Positions 16,205 through 21,182 of a stretch of 44,016 nucleotides of DNA are shown here, piece after piece. Within the stretch, counting starts at the first letter, position 1; each line of letters starts with the position of its first letter. Position numbers and translations under genes: made by a program. This stretch comes from Deltaproteobacteria bacterium. GTDB taxonomy: Bacteria; Myxococcota_A; UBA9160; SMWR01. Below the pieces are notes generated by a model, which was given only the letters and a program-made list of their open reading frames with translations, made no database searches and was not told the origin of the DNA. The stretch is taken from contig PBYF01000136.1 of NCBI GenBank assembly GCA_002729515.1, forward strand, positions 1-44,016, in the 5' to 3' direction.

Positions 16205-17071
16205 ATGGTGAGTGGCCGACTGGACCAGACGATTTCCGAACTGATCGAAACTCACAAGGTCGAACTTGCCGCTGATTGGATCGAACGCATCAAGGCTCAT
16301 CCGGGCGGCAGAACCATGGACTTGATCGATCGCGACACGCTCACACGCGAGACAAGAGCCCTGCTCGAAGCCCTCGCCACAGGTTTTCGTTCGGAGTCCT
16401 ACGACAATATCGAACACCCCGAGTTCGCCGAGGCAGTACGCCTGTTGAAGGATCTCAGCACCTCGCGCGCCCAACGCGGATTCTCTCCCAGCGAGACGGC
16501 GACATCCGTCCTGTGCCTGAAGGATTCATTGCTGAACATTCTGCAGTCCGAATACGGAACTGATCCCGAACGGCTTCATACAGGGATCATCGTGATGAAC
16601 AAGGTAATCGACCAACTCGCTTTGGTGACCTTCGAGACGTTCACGCAGGTGCGCGAGACTCTCATCACTTCGCAACACCTCGCCTTGGAGCACAGCACTC
16701 CGGTCGTCAGCATCTGGGAGGGCATGCTCTTGATGCCACTCATGGGCATCATCGACACACAACGTGCGCAGCAGATCATCGAGAACCTCCTGGATACCAT
16801 CGTATCCACAGGGTCACGGGTGGCGATCCTCGATCTCACTGCGGTGCCCGCCTTCGATACGCGGGTAGCTCAGCACATCATCAAAACGGTCTCCGCCGCG
16901 AAGATGCTCGGAGCCGATGTAATCGTCACCGGGATCAGTCCTGACGCCGCGCAGACGCTGACCAAGCTCGGTGTGGACTTGAGCATACTCGACACCTGTG
17001 GCGGATTGATATCCGGAGTCGCAGCGGGGTATCAACGGCTGGGGAAGGAGGTCCGCGATATCGGCGACTAG
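16205..17071 (+). CDS. rsbR: RsbR-type stressosome sensor/scaffold protein
   Basis: 288 residues: an N-terminal helical sensor of the RsbRD_N type (about 10-150, with SRAQRGFSPSETA) rather than a globin fold, then a STAS domain (about 164-280). The STAS part keeps the phospho-acceptor positions expected for RsbR: Thr219 in FDTRVAQH (like B. subtilis Thr171) and Thr251 in AAQTLTKLG (near Thr205). With RsbS it should form the large stressosome core that holds RsbT; phosphorylation by RsbT frees the kinase. ATG at 16205 is fixed by GGGAGG about 9 bases upstream. It is the first gene of a six-gene operon and the only RsbR paralogue in the window. The signal sensed is unknown. Confidence 0.9.
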   Translation: MVSGRLDQTISELIETHKVELAADWIERIKAHPGGRTMDLIDRDTLTRETRALLEALATGFRSESYDNIEHPEFAEAVRLLKDLSTSRAQRGFSPSETATSVLCLKDSLLNILQSEYGTDPERLHTGIIVMNKVIDQLALVTFETFTQVRETLITSQHLALEHSTPVVSIWEGMLLMPLMGIIDTQRAQQIIENLLDTIVSTGSRVAILDLTAVPAFDTRVAQHIIKTVSAAKMLGADVIVTGISPDAAQTLTKLGVDLSILDTCGGLISGVAAGYQRLGKEVRDIGD

Positions 17072-17091
17072 CGCCAGGAGCGGAGCCAACG

Positions 17092-17460
17092 ATGCGTATT
17101 CCGATACTGAAACTCAGGAACATTCTTCTCACGTCCATCCAGACGGACCTGAGCGATGACGATGCACTCCAGTTCCAGCAGGATCTGATCGAACGAACCC
17201 GAGACAGTGGAGCCGCAGGTGTCATCATAGACATCACGGCATTCGATGTCGTCGACTCGTTCATGGCTCGGGGGCTAAACGATACCGCCAACATGGCCCG
17301 ACTCGTCGGTGCCGAGAGTGTCGTCTGCGGCATGCAACCCGCCGTCGCCCTGACGCTGGTCGAGATGGGACGCGAACTCGTCGGCGTAGAGACTGCCCTC
17401 AACCTGGATCAGGCCATGGATCGACTCGAAGATCTCATCGGCTCGCGATCGAAGCGCTGA
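17092..17460 (+). CDS. rsbS: RsbS-type STAS antagonist
   Basis: 122-residue single STAS domain. The acceptor serine is Ser56 in VVDSFMARG, matching Ser59 of B. subtilis RsbS. It starts with MRIPILKLRNILL, the usual N-terminal strand of RsbS. Role: it binds and sequesters RsbT in the stressosome and releases it when Ser56 is phosphorylated. The gene follows rsbR after 20 bases with a GGAG ribosome site, and one base separates its stop from the rsbT start. Confidence 0.92.
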   Translation: MRIPILKLRNILLTSIQTDLSDDDALQFQQDLIERTRDSGAAGVIIDITAFDVVDSFMARGLNDTANMARLVGAESVVCGMQPAVALTLVEMGRELVGVETALNLDQAMDRLEDLIGSRSKR

Positions 17461-17461
17461 G

Positions 17462-17863
17462 ATGAAGGCGTCGCGGGTCGAAATCAGAGGTAGCACCGAC
17501 GTCGTGACGGCTCGGCGCGACGGCCGGGACATGGCTCGGGTGTTGGGTTTTGGCTCTGCCGATCAAACGCGGCTGGCGACTGCCATCTCGGAACTCACTC
17601 GCAACGTCGTACAGTACGCCGGCTCCGGCTTCTGCGAGATCGAGAACGCCTCGAGCCCGAATTTCATGGAGGTCCGTGTCGTCGTCGGCGACTCGGGACC
17701 CGGCATTCCCGACCTGGGGGAGGCACTTCGTGACGGCTTCAGCACCGGAGGCGGGCTCGGTGCTGGACTCCCCGGAACACGCCGGCTGGTCCATTCCTTC
17801 GACATCATTTCGGAGCCCGGCAACACACGCGTAGAGATCACTGTACGGAGACGCCGGTCATGA
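17462..17863 (+). CDS. rsbT: RsbT-type serine/threonine kinase (switch protein)
   Basis: 133 residues, one GHKL-type ATPase/kinase domain. The N box is SELTRNVVQYA (about 42-52), G1 is GDSGPGIPD (about 77-85) and G2 is GGGLGAGLPGTRRL (about 98-111). RsbT phosphorylates RsbR and RsbS and, once free, activates an output protein through an RsbU-type N-terminal domain. That domain is found here on the histidine kinase at the end of the operon. ATG start one base after rsbS. Confidence 0.93.
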   Translation: MKASRVEIRGSTDVVTARRDGRDMARVLGFGSADQTRLATAISELTRNVVQYAGSGFCEIENASSPNFMEVRVVVGDSGPGIPDLGEALRDGFSTGGGLGAGLPGTRRLVHSFDIISEPGNTRVEITVRRRRS

Positions 17864-17890
17864 GTCGTGCAGTGAGTGCCAGAGACACCG

Positions 17891-18382
17891 ATGAGATCCA
17901 TTAGGACCGAACGTGCGAGTTCGGGTCGCTGGGCTGCGGGAACATCGAATGCGGGGCAGCCCGCCCAGCCGGTTGAAGACGCGACGGTTCTCGCGGTAAC
18001 TGCTGAATGGCATGTTGCTCGCGCACGAACAGCGGCGTGGCGTGTGACGGAGCTCATGGGTTTCTCCCGCACCTTGGCCGCATACGTCGTCACCGCCGTC
18101 TCGGAACTCGCCACGAACCTCTTCTTCCACGCCACGAACGGAGGCACCATCACGCTCTTCCGCCATCAGCGAGACGGCCGATCGGGAATCACTGTCGTCG
18201 CAGAGGATGACGGCCCTGGGATCCCCGATATACAGCAGGCCCTCCTCGATGGGTTCACCACCAACAGAGGTCTCGGCGGCGGACTGCCCGGAATACAGCG
18301 GCTGATGGATGAGGTCGAAATCGAATCGCGAGTGGGGGCAGGCACGCAAGTGATCTGTCGAAAATGGAGCCCGTGCAGCTAG
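17891..18382 (+). CDS. second RsbT-like GHKL ATPase
   Basis: 163 residues from the ATG at 17891; GTG at 17876 is possible. After a non-conserved N-terminal 35 residues comes a HATPase_c_2 domain: N box SELATNLFFHA, G1 AEDDGPGIPD and G2 GLGGGLPGIQRL. It is clearly a paralogue of rsbT with all ATP-binding boxes intact. In many bacteria the gene after rsbT codes for an RsbT-like ATPase fused to an RsbX-like phosphatase. Here the two halves are separate ORFs overlapping by 19 bases in different frames, with an A4 run (18361-18364) exactly at the crossing. It may be a true two-gene form, a frameshift product or an indel. Confidence 0.82.
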   Translation: MRSIRTERASSGRWAAGTSNAGQPAQPVEDATVLAVTAEWHVARARTAAWRVTELMGFSRTLAAYVVTAVSELATNLFFHATNGGTITLFRHQRDGRSGITVVAEDDGPGIPDIQQALLDGFTTNRGLGGGLPGIQRLMDEVEIESRVGAGTQVICRKWSPCS

Positions 18383-18963
18383 GGTCTGCCTCTCGGGCCT
18401 TCCCGGGCAGTGATTGCTGCGGTGATCAGGTGGGTCAGTGGATTCGCGACTCGCTCGCAACCCTCTGCGTTGTCGATGGCCTCGGCCATGGCCCGGAGGC
18501 AGAGAGCGCGGCGAAGGCTGTGCTGACATACCTGGACCAGAATCCTCATACCTCCCTGGAGAGCCTGTTCGCTGGAGCCGACGAGGCGGTCCGCAACACG
18601 CGGGGCGCAGCCTTGGGCCTGGTCCTCGTGAACTCGAAGGAAATGTCGTTGACCCACGCGGGCGTTGGCAACACCCGAGCACTCCTGCTCAAACAGGGAA
18701 ATCCCGCCCCCAAGATTCTCAGCAGTACCTACGGCATCGTTGGTGCAGGCTACCGGAAGCTCAGGCCGGAGACGGCTTCCTTTGCGCCCGGCGACCTCTT
18801 GCTCCTCTATACCGACGGCCTCCCGGAGTACCTCGACACCACCGTGTTGGCCCGGAGCAGCAACCGGCATCCCGAGGAAATCGCCGAGCAGACCCTTCAG
18901 CGATGGGCTCTCGGTACGGACGATGCTGCGGTGCTGGTCGCCCGCATGGAGTCGCTCGGGTGA
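18364..18963 (+). CDS. rsbX: RsbX-like PP2C/SpoIIE-type serine phosphatase
   Basis: 199-residue PP2C-type phosphatase. The metal-binding Asp is in VVDGLGHGPEA (about residues 37-47). The central AALGLVLVNSKEMSLTHAGVGN region and the terminal GTDDAAVLVAR motif with its Asp pair are normal for SpoIIE/RsbX. Expected job: removing phosphate from RsbS and RsbR to reset the stressosome. ATG at 18364 lies inside the end of the RsbT-like gene, in the -1 frame relative to it. Its stop overlaps the histidine kinase GTG start (GTGA, 18960-18963). Confidence 0.88.
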   Translation: MEPVQLGSASRAFPGSDCCGDQVGQWIRDSLATLCVVDGLGHGPEAESAAKAVLTYLDQNPHTSLESLFAGADEAVRNTRGAALGLVLVNSKEMSLTHAGVGNTRALLLKQGNPAPKILSSTYGIVGAGYRKLRPETASFAPGDLLLLYTDGLPEYLDTTVLARSSNRHPEEIAEQTLQRWALGTDDAAVLVARMESLG

Positions 18964-20822
18964 TCAGCGAGGAGCATCAGAAGCGTTACTTTCGCTTTCT
19001 CGAGAGCTACATCGATGGCGGCGACGAGCGCCAACTGCTGGAGGCCGCAGATCTCGGACGCGAGTTCGTCGAAGCAGGCGTTCCGGCCGAGGAACTCACG
19101 GAACTGCACGAATTTGCTCTCGCCAGACTGGCCCGCGAACGCGCGATGCCGGAGTTGGCGAAGATTGCTTCCGCCTCACAACCCTTCATGGAAGTGATGA
19201 TGGCGTACAGCCTCGAATTCCACCTTCAGGTGGAGTCGCGGCGCAGCGCGGAGAATGAACTTCGCGAAGTCAACGATGAGCTTCGCCGTCGGGTGCGGGA
19301 ACTGGAAATCTACAAGCGAGTGTTCCAGGCTCTTCCGCTCGGCGTTTCGGTCTTCGCACTGCACGACCGTTCGGACTCCGGCTCGTTGGAGTTCATTCTT
19401 GGAAACCCCGCTGCGGAAACGATCAGATCGCGCATCGACCCGGAGATCTCCGACCCCGGAACAACGGCTGGAGCCCGCTGGGAACCCGACCCGGCATCGC
19501 TCCTCGAAGAATGCGCCGAAGTCGTTCGTCGGGACAGGCCTGCAGATCTCGGAGTGTCGGTCTTCGAAGATGAGGTAGCGGGAGCACTCTACCTGCACAC
19601 CCGCGCCTTCCCCTTGTCCGACGATCATGTCGGTCTGCATATCGAAGACATCACCGAGCGACGGAAACTCGAGGCACAGCTTCGCCACGCTCAAAAGATG
19701 GAAGCCGTCGGTCGACTTGCAGGCGGGTTTGCGCACGACTTCAACAACGTGCTTACCACGATCTTCAACTTCGCTGAATTCGCTGCCGAACGGGTCGGAG
19801 CGCAGAGTCCAGCCTATCAAGATATTCAGGAAGTGCTCCAATCTGCGGAGCGTGCCGCAGCCATCACCCGTCAACTACTTTCGTTTTCGCGCACGCAGGG
19901 TTCGCCTCGGGTACTCAATCCCAACTCTCAGCTTCGCAATATCGACCGCATGATCCGAGGACTGATCGAGGAAGATGTGGAATACCACACTCGGCTCTCC
20001 GACGATTCATGGAACATCCGGATGGATCCTGTGGCTCTCGAACAAGTGGTCATCAATCTCGTGATCAATGCGAGAGACGCACTCTCAGCGGGCGGAACAA
20101 TTTCGCTGGAGACCGAGAACCTCACGATCAACGAACTGGACCGCTCCCGCGGTGCAACATTGAAACCAGGTGAATACGTCGCGCTCGCAGTGACCGACGA
20201 TGGGACGGGAATGAGCGAGGAGATCCAGCGAAAGATCTTCGAGCCCTTCTTCACCACGAAAGATTCCAGCAAGGGTACGGGCCTGGGGCTCTCCATCTGC
20301 TTGGATCTCGTCGAACAAACTGGCGGGGTCATCCGCGTCGAGAGTAGCGTCGGCCGCGGAACCACCATCCAGATCGTGATACCCCGAGTCCAGGAAGAAG
20401 CAGAGGGCCTCCGCAAAGGGACACAGCCCGAGAAGCGCGAAGGTTCCGAGACGATCCTGGTAGCCGAGGACGACGAAGGAGTTCGGCAATCGAGTTGCCG
20501 TGCACTACGCGCGTGTGGGTACCGGGTGCTGCCGGCTGTGACCGGGGCAGAGGCGTTGCGAATTTGTGAGGCCGACCGGGTCCGACCCGATCTCCTCCTG
20601 ACCGATGTCGTCATGCCGGAACTCGGCGGCCGGGAACTCGCTGCTCGCGTGACGGCGCTTCATCCCGAAGTGAGAGTCTTGTTCATGTCGGGATACACCG
20701 GAGACTACAATGAAGAGCGGGGCATGGCGGAGCCGGGAATAGACCTGCTGCAGAAGCCCTTCAGCGCCGAAATGCTGGTTCGCAGAGTGCGTGAAATTCT
20801 CGACTCGGACCCAGACGGATAG
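18960..20822 (+). CDS. hybrid histidine kinase with RsbU-type N-terminal domain
   Basis: 620 residues. Residues 4-85 align well by eye with the B. subtilis RsbU N-terminal (RsbT-binding) domain: RYFRFLESYI, then VPAEELTELHEFAL and FMEVMMAYSLEFH. A coiled coil follows (about 88-112), then a PAS-like domain (about 115-235), then a HisKA helix with the acceptor His near 259 in GGFAHDFNN. The HATPase domain has VINLVINARDAL, DDGTGMS and GTGLGLS. A receiver domain ends the protein, with Asp near 548 in LLLTDVVMPELGG and Lys in LQKPFS. RsbT set free by stress should thus switch a His-Asp phosphorelay rather than a PP2C phosphatase. No DNA-binding partner regulator is in the window. GTG start in a GTGA overlap. 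Confidence 0.9.
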   Translation: MISEEHQKRYFRFLESYIDGGDERQLLEAADLGREFVEAGVPAEELTELHEFALARLARERAMPELAKIASASQPFMEVMMAYSLEFHLQVESRRSAENELREVNDELRRRVRELEIYKRVFQALPLGVSVFALHDRSDSGSLEFILGNPAAETIRSRIDPEISDPGTTAGARWEPDPASLLEECAEVVRRDRPADLGVSVFEDEVAGALYLHTRAFPLSDDHVGLHIEDITERRKLEAQLRHAQKMEAVGRLAGGFAHDFNNVLTTIFNFAEFAAERVGAQSPAYQDIQEVLQSAERAAAITRQLLSFSRTQGSPRVLNPNSQLRNIDRMIRGLIEEDVEYHTRLSDDSWNIRMDPVALEQVVINLVINARDALSAGGTISLETENLTINELDRSRGATLKPGEYVALAVTDDGTGMSEEIQRKIFEPFFTTKDSSKGTGLGLSICLDLVEQTGGVIRVESSVGRGTTIQIVIPRVQEEAEGLRKGTQPEKREGSETILVAEDDEGVRQSSCRALRACGYRVLPAVTGAEALRICEADRVRPDLLLTDVVMPELGGRELAARVTALHPEVRVLFMSGYTGDYNEERGMAEPGIDLLQKPFSAEMLVRRVREILDSDPDG

Positions 20823-21106: not shown

Positions 21107-21182
21107 TGGAGCACGAGACCGGGCTCGAACCGGCGACCCCCACGTTGGCAACGTGGCGCTCTACCAACTGAGCTACTCGTGC
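21107..21182 (-). tRNA. tRNA-Gly (anticodon GCC)
   Basis: Full 76-nt cloverleaf on the minus strand with encoded CCA. The acceptor pairs GCACGAG with CTCGTGC, the D stem GCTC with GAGC, and the anticodon stem CCACG with CGTGG around loop TTGCCAA, giving anticodon GCC. The T arm has TTCGAGC with one G-U closing pair. The discriminator base is U, as expected for bacterial tRNA-Gly. It lies 60 bases downstream of the nucleotide-sugar dehydrogenase gene on the same strand. Confidence 0.97.

Follow-up and report, generated by a model that had tools for sequence, protein, structure and literature searches.

Organization of the operon

We analyzed a 44,016-nucleotide stretch of DNA from a Deltaproteobacteria bacterium (GTDB phylum Myxococcota_A; contig PBYF01000136.1 of assembly GCA_002729515.1), referred to below as the window. 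Positions 16205 to 20822 contain six plus-strand genes arranged head to tail in the order rsbR-rsbS-rsbT-T2-rsbX-hybrid kinase, where T2 denotes a second, RsbT-like protein (Table 1). This stressosome operon had been set out in a preliminary description of the window, and all six genes were recovered at the same positions with Pfam domains that agreed with the proposed products. The gene order typical of rsbRSTX modules (sensor plus STAS, STAS, HATPase, and PP2C) is present, with T2 additionally located between rsbT and rsbX. A single base separates rsbS from rsbT, T2 and rsbX overlap by 19 bases, and rsbX and the kinase gene overlap in the sequence GTGA; because the genes touch or overlap in this way, translation of the operon is probably coupled. 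In RsbR, Thr219 and Thr251 presumably occupy the sites of the two RsbR phospho-threonines. Ser56 of RsbS sits in a DSF motif.

Table 1. Features of the rsb operon and the adjoining tRNA gene
Feature	Coordinates	Strand	Evidence
rsbR homologue, 288 amino acids, RsbRD_N sensor plus STAS	16205..17071	+	Pfam RsbRD_N 75 bits, STAS 45.6 bits
rsbS homologue, 122 amino acids, single STAS	17092..17460	+	Pfam STAS 37.1 bits
rsbT homologue, 133 amino acids, switch kinase, likely RsbU_N partner	17462..17863	+	Pfam HATPase_c 43.7 bits
T2, second RsbT-like protein, 168 amino acids	17876..18382	+	Pfam HATPase_c_2 51.9 bits
rsbX homologue, 199 amino acids, single-domain SpoIIE/PP2C phosphatase	18364..18963	+	Pfam SpoIIE 50.5 bits
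Hybrid histidine kinase, 620 amino acids	18960..20822	+	RsbU_N; HATPase_c 86 bits; receiver 57.7 bits; HisKA just below cut-off
RsbU_N (predicted RsbT-docking) domain of the kinase	18981..19211	+	Pfam, PDB sequence matches, Foldseek
tRNA-Gly(gcc), edge of syntenic block, operon on its 3' side	21107..21182	-	

The kinase begins with an RsbU_N-type domain

The kinase had been described as starting with an RsbU-type, RsbT-binding domain at residues 4 to 85, and a profile search bore this out. Residues 8 to 84 scored 37.5 bits against RsbU_N (PF08673), compared with a Pfam cut-off of 25.5, and the kinase was the only match to this model in the whole 4.4-Mb assembly (E = 5.4e-10). Among 14 control genomes, the model was positive in Bacillus subtilis only. 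When residues 1 to 96 were compared with the sequences of PDB chains, four B. subtilis RsbU entries (2j6z, 1w53, 2j70, and 2j6y) were retrieved with E values of 7e-4 to 7e-3, and beyond RsbU there was no match below E 0.9. A structural model of the kinase N-terminus, with a predicted local distance difference test score of 89.4, was consistent with the sequence comparisons: Foldseek ranks 1 to 8 were all RsbU, at probabilities of 0.99 to 1.00 but with E values of only 0.016 to 0.12. Residues 8 to 84 are thus best described as an RsbU_N-type domain on which RsbT is predicted to dock.

A long helix at residues 66 to 122 extends from RsbU_N toward the kinase core. The helical periodicity of this linker was weakly above that of shuffled sequences (222/5000); a coiled-coil linker barely beat the shuffles in this comparison and is retained only as a conjecture. 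The helix leads into a PAS-like region (residues ~126 to 230), the dimerization and histidine phosphotransfer (DHp) region with His259, the HATPase domain (356 to 476), and the receiver (499 to 610) with Asp549. The HATPase and receiver domains proposed earlier were readily detected (Table 1), and HisKA, at 26.5 bits, fell 0.4 bits short of the Pfam cut-off of 26.9. In an alignment of 15 RsbU_N hybrid kinases that includes the window kinase, H259, N366/N370, D413/G415/G417, G439/G441/G443, D504, D549, and K599 were invariant (15/15), and judged by sequence, the active-site residues of both kinase and receiver are intact. The PAS domain of the preliminary description was not supported by Pfam, which found no PAS family in the kinase at E ≤ 1; residues ~126 to 230 were modelled with low confidence as an alpha/beta region. 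Pfam PAS was found at the equivalent position in two Pseudomonadota relatives (L155 and L158), and a PAS-like identity of this region is plausible but unproven.

From the DHp region to the receiver, the window kinase aligned with CckA-type hybrid kinases, and its DHp and catalytic ATP-binding region was 38% identical to PDB entry 5idj. It differs from these kinases in carrying RsbU_N at its N-terminus, and it fell outside the CckA equivalog, with scores of 378.7 and 292.7 bits against NCBIfam cut-offs of 1000.

RsbU_N kinases recur in other phyla, often near rsbT

A search with residues 1 to 230, in which scoring was confined to the 7996 candidates with the most words in common with the query, returned 14 matches. 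Nine of these had the full architecture at 50 to 100% identity over that stretch, including the window's own cluster (8 further). When an RsbU_N kinase served as the query instead, 40 matches were obtained, a sample skewed toward kinases by query and length; 38 were RsbU_N positive by Pfam and comprised 8 kinases with a receiver, 23 kinases without one, and 7 other proteins (HTH, HD, or PAS).

Within the window's phylum, RsbU_N occurred in only 2 of 377 genomes, the second being G376, while RsbT-type proteins were present in 75 of them at E ≤ 1e-12; among 60 relatives, RsbU_N was restricted to the window's own genome. In Pseudomonadota, 9/398 genomes were RsbU_N positive at E ≤ 0.001, eight of them above the cut-off. 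Five of the nine encode RsbU_N, kinase, and receiver in one frame (G580, G508, G564, G556, and G540), and in G500 the same domains are spread over two frames (L154). Two further genomes (G715 and G763) have RsbU_N kinases without a fused receiver, and G687 has only an RsbU_N-HD protein, which scored below the cut-off. RsbT was encoded in the same stretch in six of the nine cases and STAS genes in two, with several stretches stopping at contig ends. The two remaining RsbU_N loci that we examined, L132 and L162, likewise had RsbT. No RsbT was seen with the kinases of L159 and L160 or the HD protein of L161; L160 and L161 lie near a contig start, and L159 has ~4.4 kb of upstream sequence present.

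A contig scan with the whole kinase recovered CckA-like cores, and in all 80 loci retained from 594 the matches started at query residue 83 or later. In a cross-phylum sample of 48 of those 80 loci, RsbU_N was present in two, one of which was again G376, a member of the window's phylum. Residues 1 to 96 had no match in a plasmid collection; the same search missed the RsbU_N-positive RsbU of L133 and hence provides no evidence of absence.

The RsbU_N kinases were found in several genetic settings. In three Pseudomonadota loci (L153, L154, and L155, from G580, G500, and G508, respectively), rsbT is followed by adjoining genes for an RsbU_N-HD protein and an RsbU_N-kinase-receiver, and no STAS gene was detected in the stretch; these loci have RsbT without an adjacent stressosome. 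The kinase of G540 adjoins a methyl-accepting-type protein whose RsbU_N was below the cut-off. In a Bacteroidetes metagenome-assembled genome (G384, L132:3996-6457), RsbT is followed by an RsbU_N-PAS-PAS-HisKA_3 kinase and a receiver protein. The receiver-less kinase of G763, which is of the same kind as that of the window, is followed by a separate 125-residue receiver protein, which suggests that the fused receiver of the window kinase replaces a separate CheY-like partner.

An orthologous operon was present in the Pseudomonadota genome G564 (L158), with the order rsbR(RsbRD_N)-rsbS-rsbT-T2-rsbX-RsbU_N-GGDEF-RsbU_N-PAS-kinase-receiver. The gene order is that of the window, and the difference is an extra RsbU_N-GGDEF diguanylate cyclase between rsbX and the kinase. 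Identities between the two operons were 45% for RsbR, 60% for RsbS, 45% for RsbT, 56% for T2, 34% for RsbX, and 29% for the kinase, and the RsbU_N of the diguanylate cyclase scored 25.7 bits against the cut-off of 25.5. Because this arrangement is common to two phyla, the RsbU_N-kinase operon is hardly a chance fusion. The cyclase and kinase genes adjoin (L158:5214-7891), so that RsbT might have two targets within this single operon.

Other stressosome kinases carry an RsbT-like domain in place of RsbU_N, so RsbU_N appears to be one of at least two adaptors. Using Pfam and a custom RsbT profile, we found that the kinases in three of four named plasmid operons start with an RsbT-like HATPase (Paraburkholderia, L135:7366-8379; Phaeobacter, L136:7378-8535; and Deinococcus, L137:7405-8757), and that of the Halobaculum plasmid starts with PAS. 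In four genomes of the window's order (G006, G025, G031, and G036), the downstream hybrid kinase frame has a weak RsbT-like stretch ahead of the kinase, which in G006 scored 23 bits with the custom profile and had no Pfam match. Loci of the window's order (L112:7231-9285, L111, L113, and L114) place hybrid kinases with this degenerate stretch and without RsbU_N after rsbS-T-X, and the kinase of L112 has two receivers. The RsbR of one of these relatives (L111:4690-5559) has an N-terminal protoglobin domain, like the Vibrio oxygen-sensing type. One plasmid record labelled Stenotrophomonas rhizophila (CP031730.1, L134) holds a SigB operon of Bacillales type whose neighbors match those in a Lysinibacillus fusiformis record, and is probably mislabelled or contaminated.

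RsbT is the predicted ligand of the kinase

PMC12143880 names Y28, E24, I74, and I78 of RsbU and R19, R23, and N24 of RsbT as contacts. In the PDB comparison alignment, the corresponding kinase positions are E23 (E24 in RsbU), L27 (Y28), M77 (I74), and M81 (I78), and E23, E78, and Y83 of RsbU_N were invariant in the 15 aligned hybrid kinases. The window RsbT, which is 45% identical to RsbT from the Lysinibacillus SigB operon, keeps R19, G22, and R23 and has D at position 24. T2 carries R19, W23, and R24, and its counterpart in the orthologous operon has Thr at position 23; the ATP-binding boxes of both RsbT and T2 are intact.

We then compared the first RsbT of each operon, leaving aside second RsbT-like domains, a relic copy on contig 92, and the three RsbU_N stretches without RsbT. 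R19 and R23 were both present in 10/10 operons with an adjoining RsbU_N protein (those of the window and of eight other loci, plus the Lysinibacillus control) versus 16/32 operons without RsbU_N (one-sided Fisher test, 0.0036; 0.0058 without the Lysinibacillus control). Because the two groups differ largely in phylum, this contrast is a hint only. Specific covariation of RsbT and RsbU_N was therefore rejected as an argument, given that half of the RsbT proteins without RsbU_N also keep both arginines and lineage is confounded, and our case does not rest on it.

In Phaeobacter and Paraburkholderia, rsbT is followed by a one-chain HATPase-SpoIIE protein, and the same was true of 12/24 loci scanned in the window's phylum. 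T2 and RsbX of the window look like a split form of this chain, with T2 as the HATPase half. Because of this resemblance, and because T2 has lost R23, the kinase is more likely to have RsbT than T2 as its ligand.

By analogy with B. subtilis, RsbR and RsbS would form the sensor core, RsbT would phosphorylate both under stress and leave, and RsbX would reset the core, with T2 probably working alongside RsbX in this reset arm. Free RsbT (17462 to 17863, and not T2) would then attach to the dimer of RsbU_N domains and cause the helix at residues 66 to 122 to become ordered, as RsbT does for RsbU. Ordering of the RsbU linker by RsbT is reported in PMC12143880, which also cites a Moorella diguanylate cyclase that carries RsbU_N and is controlled by RsbT. 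In the window kinase, the ordered helix would shift the kinase-phosphatase balance at H259 and hence the phosphate load on D549, possibly in either direction; the receiver fused to the kinase may additionally serve as its gate. Taken together, the sequence and model comparisons make it fairly probable that RsbT released under stress docks on the RsbU_N of the kinase, where it likely switches phosphotransfer.

We weighed this reading against three others. RsbT might phosphorylate the kinase on Ser/Thr, with RsbU_N merely recruiting it and no allosteric docking switch involved. PMC9237108 proposes such phosphorylation where the downstream sensor kinases lack RsbU_N, PMC4976288 reports that RsbT phosphorylates a Moorella diguanylate cyclase, and the ATP-binding boxes of the window RsbT are intact. 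However, the window kinase conserves the docking domain of RsbU. In work by Kang in 1998, the kinase activity of RsbT was reportedly dispensable for RsbU, which also counts against phosphorylation of the kinase, and we consider this mechanism unlikely. Alternatively, RsbU_N might only dimerize, as that of B. subtilis does according to PMC12143880, with the kinase sensing through its PAS-like region and its place in the operon reflecting co-regulation without direct RsbT input. The three of nine Pseudomonadota stretches in which no RsbT was seen, two of them near a contig start, fit this view, but the contact Glu is invariant (15/15) and RsbT is encoded with RsbU_N in the six other cases plus L132 and L162, making a dimerization-only role quite unlikely. 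That T2 rather than RsbT is the ligand seems very improbable despite the proximity of its gene to that of the kinase and its intact ATP boxes, as Trp replaces the contact residue Arg23 (Thr in the orthologous T2) and HATPase domains of this kind occur elsewhere in one chain with RsbX-type phosphatases.

Downstream components in the genome

RsbU phosphatase, RsbV, RsbW, and sigma-B are absent from the locus, as had been stated before. Beyond the locus, contig 41 (L129:3118-6202) carries GAF-SpoIIE phosphatase, HATPase, and STAS genes, a separate partner-switch set without RsbU_N. By eye, this set adjoins apparent ATP-binding cassette transporter genes, and no sigma gene was seen there. In the assembly, which is 93% complete, there was no PP2C phosphatase bearing RsbU_N, and none of six sigma factor matches exceeded the SigBFG cut-off (0/6). 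A 254-residue sigma-70 protein on contig 73 was considered as a link to SigB and rejected, as it lies below this cut-off; from its sequence we take it to be FliA-like.

The preliminary description had also remarked on a missing downstream regulator. Judged by eye, no response regulator was noticed among the listed open reading frames of the window, most of which were not scanned; the regulator is missing locally. A search of the genome for Hpt domains gave one match, upstream of a CheA-like gene, and the one match to the ChpT family was below the cut-off; on these grounds, neither was accepted as a candidate phosphate acceptor. Contig 92 (L110, 4559-5261) holds a decayed second copy of the operon, in which rsbS and T2 are reduced to their ends and rsbX to its start, whereas rsbT is still open and is 89% identical to that of the window. 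Contamination of the assembly is 7.66%, and this copy might come from a second strain.

Relationship to known stressosome outputs

The window operon shares homologues of RsbR, RsbS, RsbT, and RsbX with the B. subtilis RsbRST-RsbU-SigB pathway, as well as a target protein that starts with RsbU_N. In B. subtilis this target is a PP2C phosphatase, whereas in the window it is a hybrid histidine kinase, encoded at a locus that lacks RsbV, RsbW, and SigB and has the additional T2. For globin-type rsbRSTX modules, Heinz et al. (2022; PMC9237108) described eleven downstream architectures, some with RsbU_N, and HisKA/REC phosphorelays. As in the window, RsbX directly follows RST in Gram-negative modules such as V. 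vulnificus D1/D2, and signaling proteins lie downstream (PMC9237108). The V. vulnificus proteins have no detected RsbU_N and its RsbR is globin coupled, in contrast to the RsbRD_N sensor and kinase-fused receiver of the window.

RsbU_N kinases occur with rsbT and stressosome genes according to PMC12143880, which models one of them, MBI3545564.1; this kinase resembles that of the window in carrying RsbU_N but is NreB-type, without the CckA-like core and fused receiver. G376, from the window's phylum, resembles the RsbU_N-NreB type by eye, with the kinase directly after rsbS-rsbT and a separate NarL-like regulator behind it. RsbK, the hybrid kinase of the Bacillus cereus RsbK/RsbY stress pathway, is not known to carry RsbU_N, and its pathway differs from the window in leading to sigma-B and in its methylation by RsbM. 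The RsbK receiver acts as an inhibitory element (PMC4574943).

Because PMC9237108 and PMC12143880 report RsbU_N proteins or kinases in stressosome operons, the window operon is a further example of a known coupling. The one-chain RsbU_N-kinase-receiver, singled out earlier as unusual, is real, but its novelty is weakened by these publications and by the recurrence of the one-chain form. We did not find this form described in words in the literature covered, which extended neither to subscription papers nor to Figure 3 of PMC9237108, and do not claim its absence from print.

In the Gram-negative stressosomes treated in this literature (Vibrio), the downstream target is unproven, and a kinase with a predicted RsbT-docking domain beside rsbT offers a directly testable link between a stressosome and a His-Asp phosphorelay. 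More tentatively, and as a possibility that is less likely than not, RsbU_N may be an interchangeable RsbT socket, such that one RsbT drives all sockets in its operon and broadcasts stress into a phosphorelay and cyclic di-GMP turnover simultaneously. If so, the sockets would be a CckA-type kinase in the window, a kinase and a diguanylate cyclase in L158, and elsewhere a kinase together with an HD (HD-GYP-like) protein or a chemotaxis-type transducer. These loci add examples to the proposal, made in PMC12143880, that regulatory domains are swapped among phosphatases, kinases, and cyclases. The window operon is well suited to testing phosphorelays driven by RsbT and the fan-out of a single RsbT, and the L158 operon, with its diguanylate cyclase, is a system for testing one RsbT with two outputs.

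Origin of the operon

The GC content at third codon positions was 0.67 to 0.77 in the operon versus 0.83 to 0.86 in neighboring genes such as those for UDP-glucose dehydrogenase, nadB, and the aminotransferase. About 285 bases lie between the end of the operon and the 3' terminus of tRNA-Gly(gcc), and this terminus was not found a second time within the window as an attachment repeat. Four genes of the left flank had no match in six loci fetched from relatives, a result of little weight because only L193, L196, and L197 extend at least 6 kb past the tRNA gene and the other three end within ~2.2 kb. These six loci, drawn from 16 relatives that strongly matched the UDP-glucose dehydrogenase, all kept the nadB-pgsA-UDP-glucose dehydrogenase-tRNA-Gly block (6/6), and a mis-binned contig was rejected for the right flank on this ground. 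Given the rarity of RsbU_N in the phylum, the adjoining tRNA-Gly gene, and the lower third-position GC content, the operon was likely acquired.

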